Of a DNA stretch of 33,206 bases, positions 568 through 2,712 are shown piece by piece. Within the stretch, counting starts at the first letter, position 1. Each line of letters starts with the position of its first letter. Under the pieces are notes generated by a model that was not told where the DNA came from, ran no database searches, and saw only the letters and a list, made by a program, of their open reading frames with translations. Location of the stretch: positions 1 to 33,206 of the forward strand of contig CANQWI010000008.1 in assembly GCA_947627515.1 (NCBI GenBank), in the 5' to 3' direction. The position numbers were made by a program, and so were the translations under genes. This DNA is from an uncultured Clostridia bacterium (GTDB taxonomy: Bacteria > Bacillota > Clostridia > Christensenellales > Borkfalkiaceae).

Positions 568-765
568 TTATTTATCAAAATAAATTTTATTTTGATGATT
601 TATTTTGTTTTGCAAATGGATTCGGATAAACCTTCGGGATATGTAGGGGCTACCCTTCTTATCTTGTGTGATTCTTTCGTCTGCCGTGTTCCTGCACCAA
701 TTTGCGACTGTCCTTTGAGAAACGCCCCAAAGTGCCGCTGCTTCTTTTGTTCCCATGTCTGACAT
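568..765 (-). pseudogene. Small helix-turn-helix (excisionase-like) protein, probably frameshifted
   Basis: MSDMGTKEAAALWGVSQRTVANWCRN… is a typical small HTH. After KKGSPY the expected continuation seems to lie in another frame (IPKVYPNPFAKQNKSSK*). RBS-like aggag upstream on the minus strand. Confidence 0.45.
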
Positions 766-784: not shown

Positions 785-2425
785 TTATTTATTTTTGATT
801 TTTTTGCAAAGGTAGGAATTCTCATCCAAATCTTTTATAAATTCTGCCGCGGATTCCGGATCGCTCAGAATTTCATCATCAATAAGTTCACCTTCACTAT
901 CTTCCTCGGTCAATAAAACCCAACCGTGCGGATCGGAAAATTCAATCGATTCCAAATCATCACAGTTCGAAAAAGCTTCCGCGCCTATAAAGGAAACATT
1001 CCGAGGGATTGTGATGGAATTCAAGCTTGAGGAATTAAAGGCGGAGGCACAGATTGAGGTTATGTTCTTTGGAATTACAATTGACGATATTTCTATGCCC
1101 CAAAATGCGTTTTTACCAATCGAAGTAGTATATTCCGGAATCACGCTGGTTGCACATCCCCCTACGAGTGTGTTATCTTCGATACGTATCAAGCAATTTC
1201 CTTCGCTACGGAAATATTTATTTCCAGAATCCACAGTAATGGTTTCAAGTGCATAACAGCTTGCGAAAATATTATCGCCAATTGATGTAACGCTTGACGG
1301 AATTACAATTGAAGAAATGTTAGTAAAGCTAAATGCGCCCGCGCCAATAGAGGTCACACTGTTTGGAATTTCGATTGATTCAAGGTTTTCGCAAAACGCA
1401 AAAGCATCTTCTCCAATCGAAGTCACACTATTCGGGATGCTTACAAATGTGAGACTTTCGCAAGTATCAAAGGTGTTATCCTCAATGGAAGTAACACCAT
1501 CGGGAATTTCGATTGATGTGAGTTTTTTGCAGGACGCAAAGGCACTATCTCCAATAGAAGTGAGTTTTTTGGGAAGTTTAACGGAAATAAGATTTTCACA
1601 GCCTAAAAAAGTATTGTCTTTTATTGCCGTAAGGTGTTCCGGAAGATCGATTGAAGTAAGGCTTTCACAGTCTGAGAACGCCGAGCTTCCGAGATAGGTA
1701 ACAGAATTCGGTATTGTAACAGAGGCGAGCTTCTTACATTTTGCGAAGGCGGAAGAGTCAATGAAGGTAACACTCTCTGGAATTATGATCGATTCCAGAT
1801 TGACGCAGCCCTCAAAGGCACTTCCCCCAATCGATTTAATACTATTAGGAATTGTGATTGAGTTTAGTTTTGCGCAAAATGAAAAGGCGCTTCCCCCAAT
1901 CGATTTAACATTGTTCGAAATATAAACAGTAGTAATGGTTTCGCATCTTTCAAATGCAGAGTCTCCGATAGATGTAACACGTTCCGGAAGGAATACAACA
2001 GGACCTTTTCCCCGATATTTTTTTAACGCGCCGTTTTCTACATCAAATGGCGAAATATAATCATCGCTGTCTTGGGTCGTTACTCCGTATGTCTGCGGAT
2101 ACCCGTTCCCGTTCATTGGCGGCGTCCATTCGATATTCCTGTATTTCGACTTTAAGTTTTTCAGTTTTGAAACATTGTTGTAACGAAGTGCCGATTCGAT
2201 TTCGCCTTCTACGTCGCCATCCATCATGACAGTAATAAGGTCTCCCATCAGCCCACATGCCATGCATTGATAGGTGGTCGTGGTTTTGGTTTTCCCATTC
2301 ACGCCGGCCACAGCTCCACCAGAACCAAATAGGAGTGATCCTAAAAAACCTTTTCCCCAACTAAATCTTGATTTTTGTTTTGTTTCAGTTGTGATGTTGG
2401 TGCTACCGCAATTTTTACATCTCAT
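785..2425 (-). CDS. Zinc-ribbon plus BspA-type leucine-rich-repeat (LRR_5) protein
   Basis: Start at 2425 (MRCKNCGS…) preceded by GGAGG; CxxC…CxxC at the N-terminus, Gly-rich hydrophobic segment, then about a dozen 23-aa repeats such as VTSIGDSAFASCKKLTSIEIPDG. Confidence 0.85.
   Translation of the reverse strand: MRCKNCGSTNITTETKQKSRFSWGKGFLGSLLFGSGGAVAGVNGKTKTTTTYQCMACGLMGDLITVMMDGDVEGEIESALRYNNVSKLKNLKSKYRNIEWTPPMNGNGYPQTYGVTTQDSDDYISPFDVENGALKKYRGKGPVVFLPERVTSIGDSAFERCETITTVYISNNVKSIGGSAFSFCAKLNSITIPNSIKSIGGSAFEGCVNLESIIIPESVTFIDSSAFAKCKKLASVTIPNSVTYLGSSAFSDCESLTSIDLPEHLTAIKDNTFLGCENLISVKLPKKLTSIGDSAFASCKKLTSIEIPDGVTSIEDNTFDTCESLTFVSIPNSVTSIGEDAFAFCENLESIEIPNSVTSIGAGAFSFTNISSIVIPSSVTSIGDNIFASCYALETITVDSGNKYFRSEGNCLIRIEDNTLVGGCATSVIPEYTTSIGKNAFWGIEISSIVIPKNITSICASAFNSSSLNSITIPRNVSFIGAEAFSNCDDLESIEFSDPHGWVLLTEEDSEGELIDDEILSDPESAAEFIKDLDENSYLCKKIKNK
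970..2010 (-). repeat. Coding tandem repeats (LRR_5 units, 23 aa / 69 bp period)
   Basis: Recurrent xTSIGxxAFxxCxxLxSIxIPxSV units visible in the translation. Confidence 0.8.
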
Positions 2426-2443
2426 AAAAATCCTCCGTGTTTG

Positions 2444-2458
2444 ATAGCATACTGCTAT
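2444..2458. promoter_or_regulatory. Operator-like dyad ATAGCA-tac-TGCTAT
   Basis: Perfect 6-bp arms, 3-nt spacer; a second imperfect copy (ATAACG-gtt-TGCTAT) at 2474-2488, exactly 30 bp away. Confidence 0.55.
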
Positions 2459-2468
2459 ATTTGCACAT

Positions 2469-2497
2469 ATTATATAACGGTTTGCTATAATTGTCAA
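2469..2497 (-). promoter_or_regulatory. Consensus sigma-A promoter of the LRR gene (TTGACA-N17-TATAAT)
   Basis: Minus strand: TTGACA (2497-2492), 17-nt spacer, TATAAT (2474-2469). Confidence 0.8.
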
Positions 2498-2505
2498 GAG
2501 AAATT

Positions 2506-2712
2506 ATGAAAGTATTTCAGGAAAAATTGAAAGAAACACGAACGCTCTGCGGATTGACACAGAGACAGGTCGCAGATGCACTCGGAATATCCCAACCATC
2601 CTACATCCGTTATGAAAACGGAAGCTCAGAGCCCACGCTTGAAAATCTTGCAAGGCTTGCCGATTTATTTGATGTCTCGGTTGATTTTTTGTTGGGCAGA
2701 AAAGAATATTGA
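2506..2712 (+). CDS. XRE-family (Cro/cI-type HTH) transcriptional regulator
   Basis: MKVFQEKLKETRTLCGLTQRQVADALGISQPSYIRYENGSSEPTLENLARLADLFDVSVDFLLGRKEY; canonical HTH_3. Confidence 0.85.
   Translation: MKVFQEKLKETRTLCGLTQRQVADALGISQPSYIRYENGSSEPTLENLARLADLFDVSVDFLLGRKEY

Follow-up and report, generated by a model that had tools for sequence, protein, structure and literature searches.

The window (the whole stretch of 33,206 nucleotides analysed here, from an uncultured Clostridia bacterium) holds a short control region shared by an LRR gene and a divergent gene for a small XRE protein, and the question it raises is whether the two dyads lying across its promoters are operators of that protein. 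The best explanation, in which our confidence is high, is that positions 2431-2712 form a self-contained repressor-promoter cassette, with the XRE protein acting on the two dyads, and that the cargo gene across the promoter has been exchanged over time. Comparison among related genomes shows the promoter, the operators, their pairing with the XRE gene, the locality of the system and the change of cargo. The features are collected in Table 1.

Table 1. Elements of the control region and the two genes it separates; positions refer to the window.
Feature	Positions	Strand	Description
Cargo gene, LRR protein	785..2425	minus	546 aa; N-terminal Cys-pair (Zn-ribbon-like) segment, then BspA-type LRRs
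Conserved repressor-promoter cassette	2431..2712		blastn against G031: one 282-bp block, 92.9% identical; cargo Shine-Dalgarno, O2, cargo promoter with O1, XRE promoter, XRE gene through its stop codon
Shine-Dalgarno GGAGG of LRR gene	2432..2436	minus	from sequence
Operator O2 (predicted), ATAGCATACTGCTAT	2444..2458		LRR leader; perfect 6-3-6 dyad; 30-32 bp from O1 in 26 loci
LRR promoter, TTGACA-N17-TATAAT	2469..2497	minus	12/12 to consensus; kept in orthologs
Operator O1 (predicted), ATAACGGTTTGCTAT	2474..2488		in LRR promoter spacer, overlapping XRE -10; dyad conserved in all orthologous loci
XRE promoter, extended -10, TGCTATAAT	2483..2491	plus	from sequence; no good -35
XRE repressor gene (predicted)	2506..2712	plus	ORF, 68 aa; single Cro/C1-type HTH; close orthologs 63-94% identical

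Read base for base, the sequence bears out all the coordinates that the earlier note had given for these elements: the perfect minus-strand LRR promoter, with TTGACA at 2497-2492, N17 and TATAAT at 2474-2469; one dyad in its spacer and another in the LRR leader; and, within the same DNA, a TATAAT for the XRE gene at 2486-2491, which has a TG in front (absent from some orthologs) and with it scores 10/12 in a consensus scan. O1 fills most of the LRR promoter spacer and overlaps one base of the LRR -10. The two dyads had been described as having the same geometry; O2 is perfect and O1 imperfect, the latter differing from ATAGCA-N3-TGCTAT at 2/12 positions. For the XRE transcript, a leader of about 8 nt is predicted, with no clear Shine-Dalgarno, and the XRE protein itself, given earlier as 69 residues, has 68, counted from the ATG at 2506. 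It consists of one HTH_3 domain (PF01381, residues 8-62, 6e-19, 68.2 bits against a cut-off of 23), which places it in the Cro/C1-type family, with no other or partner domain. Rfam gave no match anywhere in the window.

Taken in isolation, both the promoter and the dyads would carry less weight. A strong promoter of the LRR type is ordinary for the genus: perfect TTGACA-N17-TATAAT sequences number 55 in this genome (a 1.5-Mb assembly) and 53-67 in each of the three genomes counted (G000, G019 and G056), with 0 in the reversed controls, and the idea that the perfect promoter is remarkable in itself was rejected on these counts. Among 60 perfect promoters examined, a divergent XRE stands at 7, and the association of a perfect spacer dyad with an adjacent XRE is just a trend (p = 0.10), partly because O1 dyads are often imperfect. 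Weak operator-like sites in the window's own genome are at chance level (18 versus 16 in the reversed control, at <=3 mismatches), so that O1 is secure only through comparison with relatives; a wider regulon of further O2-like sites was rejected on the same search.

Such a comparison was made across 101 related genomes and turned up 22 loci that carry this XRE or one closely orthologous to it (63-94% identical, the window's own aside). All 22 loci, oriented alike, have a consensus or near-consensus divergent promoter whose spacer carries an O1-type dyad (ATARC-N5-GYTAT), and at 30-32 bp from it stands another (ATAGC-N5-GCTAT). The divergent promoter has <=1/12 mismatches in 20/22 loci, as against 0.2% of dinucleotide shuffles. 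A pattern composed of the promoter and O1 from these orthologous loci, when run on 103 genomes of the genus, gave 27 matches at 26 loci in 26/103 genomes, one locus per genome, the 27th being a reverse-strand match at the same locus in one genome, and 0 matches in the reversed control. An XRE ortholog (63-100% identity) adjoins every one of the 26 loci, among them those of five genomes (G107, G122, G128, G131 and G134) that played no part in deriving the pattern. The distance between O1 and O2 is 31 bp in 17 of the 26 loci, 30 bp in 5 and 32 bp in 4; the 30 bp reported before is therefore true of the window and four other loci, while 31 bp is the commonest value. An exact 30-bp operator pattern was discarded as a search tool, as it misses most orthologs; in GTDB genome contigs it has 8 matches, and the 4 outside the group, which lack promoter and XRE, look like chance. 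O2 is slightly nearer to the consensus than O1 (on average 0.62 versus 1.08 mismatches, with p = 0.03 for 26 loci treated as independent, an optimistic value given their kinship), a difference so small that any order of occupancy would be a guess.

It could be argued that the dyads are a by-product of the promoters, since overlapping divergent -10 boxes (ATTATA...TATAAT) are palindromic, and that polymerase is the sole binder. Two things would fit: the bases in the outer arms of O1 fall on the -10 boxes of both promoters, and consensus promoters are common in this genome. In an alignment of the spacers, however, conservation extends to the inner arm bases, none of which belongs to a promoter hexamer; two of the four are invariant, while the middle of the site is variable, and this makes a dyad of mere back-to-back -10 boxes very unlikely. 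O2, moreover, has no promoter element, yet shows the same sequence at a nearly fixed distance, and paralogs with equally good promoters have different dyads. On balance, this explanation is scarcely credible.

The paralogs are informative in their own right. Sixty non-orthologous XRE loci were fetched, mostly the best-scoring ones and no random sample; a divergent TTGACA-N17-TATAAT with <=1 mismatch accompanies 43/53 further small XREs of the genus, as against 3/16 from other families. The spacer dyad differs by XRE family in many loci and is common to XREs with like recognition helices: ATACAG..CTGTAT goes with QPVYQRFE, TACCA..TGGTA with SVTYLHYE, ACCGA..TCGGT with QQSYSDYE, ATAAC..GTTAT with LQPSYARYE and CCGAATTTCGG with KTTVCQWE. 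Several of these families have a second site 30-34 bp away, and others seemingly have one site (O1) only. An operator that follows the protein is what would be expected if the XRE protein reads it, and this tracking of operator sequence with protein family is the best available evidence for binding by the adjacent protein. The dyads are thus very probably operators of the adjacent XRE protein; the proposal of the earlier note that it represses locally through them is strongly supported by comparison, the dyads being kept at every locus examined and differing in paralogs.

Might the dyads instead belong to a different, global regulator, with the XRE gene among its targets? The 68-aa XRE has no sensor domain, so that a signal must come from elsewhere, which would suit such an arrangement. 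Against it, there is one promoter-operator locus per genome, always beside this XRE, and the site is missing from most genomes of the genus, which together make a global regulator very unlikely.

How the XRE protein would bind, repress and switch we infer from the layout. The 68-aa protein, presumably a dimer, would sit on two dyads of the ATAGCA-N3-TGCTAT type and act solely on its own locus. As O1 lies in the LRR spacer and on the XRE -10, its occupancy should shut both promoters, so that cargo repression and negative autoregulation would go together. O2 falls at about +4 to +18 in the transcript of the cargo and, reckoned from the XRE promoter, at about -54 to -40; its occupancy would block the cargo and leave the XRE promoter free, or even help it. 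Since the promoters overlap, polymerase on one would exclude polymerase from the other, and switch-like behaviour could follow. The XRE promoter, with its good -10 and poor -35, would be weaker than the strong LRR promoter, and this, together with the short leader and its lack of a clear Shine-Dalgarno, suggests that the repressor is made in small, self-limiting amounts. The narrow range of spacing (30-32 bp) suggests that both sites may be needed on one face of the helix. Direct cooperativity between O1 and O2, which the earlier note had suggested, is doubtful, however, because nothing evident in a 68-residue HTH could span the 15-17 bp that separate the sites, and several other XRE families of the genus seem to make do with O1; activation of the XRE promoter from O2 could be an alternative reason for the fixed phase.

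A variant of this best explanation, with the binding model in common and hence an overlapping share of confidence, is a homeostat with no induction, where the XRE protein mainly limits its own level and the cargo runs at steady low output. O1 over both promoters favours negative autoregulation, and no inducer, sensor domain or antirepressor was found. Still, a consensus promoter and a second operator in the leader would be wasteful for steady low output, and the related repressors ImmR and RcoLS20 are default-off switches (PMC6540685). We consider the homeostat a real possibility beside the switch of the earlier note, in which a strong promoter would be held off until induced.

Whether switch or homeostat, the predicted operators overlap both promoters and are conserved together with the repressor, as in an autoregulated divergent repressor-operator module. 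In tetR/tetA of Tn10, divergent repressor and effector genes likewise share two operators, which lie about 30 bp from each other and cover both promoters. TetR, however, belongs to an unrelated family with a ligand-binding domain, for which the XRE protein has no counterpart, and here the cargo changes while the cassette stays. At OR of phage lambda, tandem operators shut off one promoter and could turn the other up or down, through an HTH of the same superfamily as the XRE protein; in contrast to lambda, the cassette has two predicted sites and not three, no dimerisation domain and no Cro-like opponent.

Closer in kind are ImmR of ICEBs1 and RcoLS20 of pLS20, two XRE-type repressors that keep divergent promoters under default-off control in Bacillus (PMC4207663, PMC6540685). 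They share with the cassette a repressor gene divergent from the controlled operon, several sites (here predicted) and close promoters, which overlap in pLS20. Those repressors, however, act on large mobile elements and have antirepressor partners (Rap proteins, ImmA), whereas the cassette amounts to a bare 68-aa HTH with two 15-bp sites and a chromosomal cargo of one or a few genes. A gene for an ImmA-type protease (Peptidase_M78, PF06114) had no match in the genome, which is 71% complete, so that its absence is not final.

These kinships raise the alternative that the locus is the remnant of an immunity region of the RstR/ImmR type from a prophage or integrative element. The nearest named relative of the XRE protein is RstR of CTXphi, also a small HTH_3 protein (46% identity over 65 residues), and its nearest PDB match is ImmR of ICEBs1 (7t8i). 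Yet the protein scores 72.9 bits with the RstR family model NF041951 (NCBIfam), below the 80-bit cut-off, and unlike RstR it lies outside a phage and faces other cargo. The six genes tested to the right are all housekeeping genes (DegV, oxidoreductases, amidase, thioesterase and aminotransferase), and matches of the promoter-operator pattern in viral contigs have no XRE, a result on which a phage origin was rejected. A remnant of this kind is therefore unlikely.

The limits of the cassette emerge where its cargo differs. In pairwise comparisons of the 22 loci, DNA similarity is usually confined, where the cargo differs, to a block from about -64 to +206 as counted from the XRE start; the conserved unit, of about 270-280 bp, extends from O2 or the cargo ribosome-binding site to the XRE stop codon. 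Between the window and G031, its nearest relative, 73/75 bases before the XRE start and 189/207 in the XRE gene are identical, while the flanks of the cassette stand at 24-26% identity, the random level; the neighbouring DegV region, an orthologous stretch on another G031 contig that served as control, is 77% identical over 1.8 kb, against 93% for the cassette. In two other genomes (G024 and G007) the upstream flank is 89-96% and the cassette 94% identical, and the cargo is different, Zn-ribbon genes in one and a lipoprotein in the other.

Across the 22 loci the cargo varies, and no conserved controlled gene emerges. Besides the Zn-ribbon/LRR protein of the window (PF13306 LRR_5, 5e-101), for whose N-terminal segment 8 other genomes of the genus have relatives, it comprises an LRR lipoprotein; lipoproteins carrying Listeria-Bacteroides repeats (PF09479); further lipoproteins or secreted proteins; membrane proteins with a Zn-ribbon; an adenine methylase of EcoRI type (PF13651) accompanied by a GmrSD-like gene (PF03235); sugar transferases/glycosyltransferases (PF04488); and another HTH gene (cargo genes being called by a simple script and Pfam run on representative cargo proteins). 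On an XRE tree of 68 columns and weak support, the loci with sugar transferases group together and those with methylases nearly do, while in the part around the window the cargo differs from one row to the next, the 12 cargo labels requiring at least 14 changes. Four relatives of the LRR gene (L139, L140, L141 and L142), for their part, adjoin a divergent small ribbon-helix-helix gene, with no XRE; the three whose upstream DNA was examined (L139-L141) have, between the two genes, a promoter at or near consensus that is accompanied by other repeats. With the XRE found before varied cargo and the LRR gene found with a ribbon-helix-helix partner, both halves of the pair are replaceable. The control unit is separable from its cargo, a point absent from the earlier note, and over evolution the cassette has been joined to many cargo genes, the LRR protein being one. 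Its recurrence before different genes suggests portable, dedicated on/off control, mostly of cell-surface, defence and envelope-type genes.

Divergent repressors are familiar; less so is a minimal repressor-promoter unit that stays intact while one controlled gene gives way to another, and no description of a cassette family of this sort was found in the open-access literature. Such a cassette would explain how surface or defence genes could be tightly controlled from the moment of their acquisition. More broadly, and almost as an even call, the genus may maintain a set of small, mutually orthogonal XRE repressors in cassettes of about 280 bp, which reassort by recombination or transfer with surface, defence or envelope-type genes, regulation being passed on as a portable plug-in, whichever gene it governs. 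The many XRE families, each with its own dyad in the spacer of a near-consensus promoter, would offer a natural set for deciphering a recognition code of small HTH repressors and a ready source for building orthogonal gene switches.

Some individual loci deserve mention. In the window, a 65-aa HTH_17-like ORF (568-765, minus strand) begins some 20 bp past the stop codon of the LRR gene, which shares its strand, and is followed by a hairpin with 20-bp arms at 518-564; together they may represent a second cargo gene and its terminator. Three genomes (loci L018, L022 and L025) have common chromosomal flanks and different cargo or none, like the L012/L013 pair. At L022 (G053), about 75 bp of repeat-like DNA lies between the operators and the XRE start, with a housekeeping-like ORF across the promoter, and this is possibly a decaying cassette. 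Finally, the genes for the EcoRI-type methylase contain perfect runs of 14 and 12 ACAG/CTGT units (L019:2688-2743 and L028:339-386, respectively), which in both encode in-frame TDRQ repeats, and this cargo could be phase-variable by slippage.
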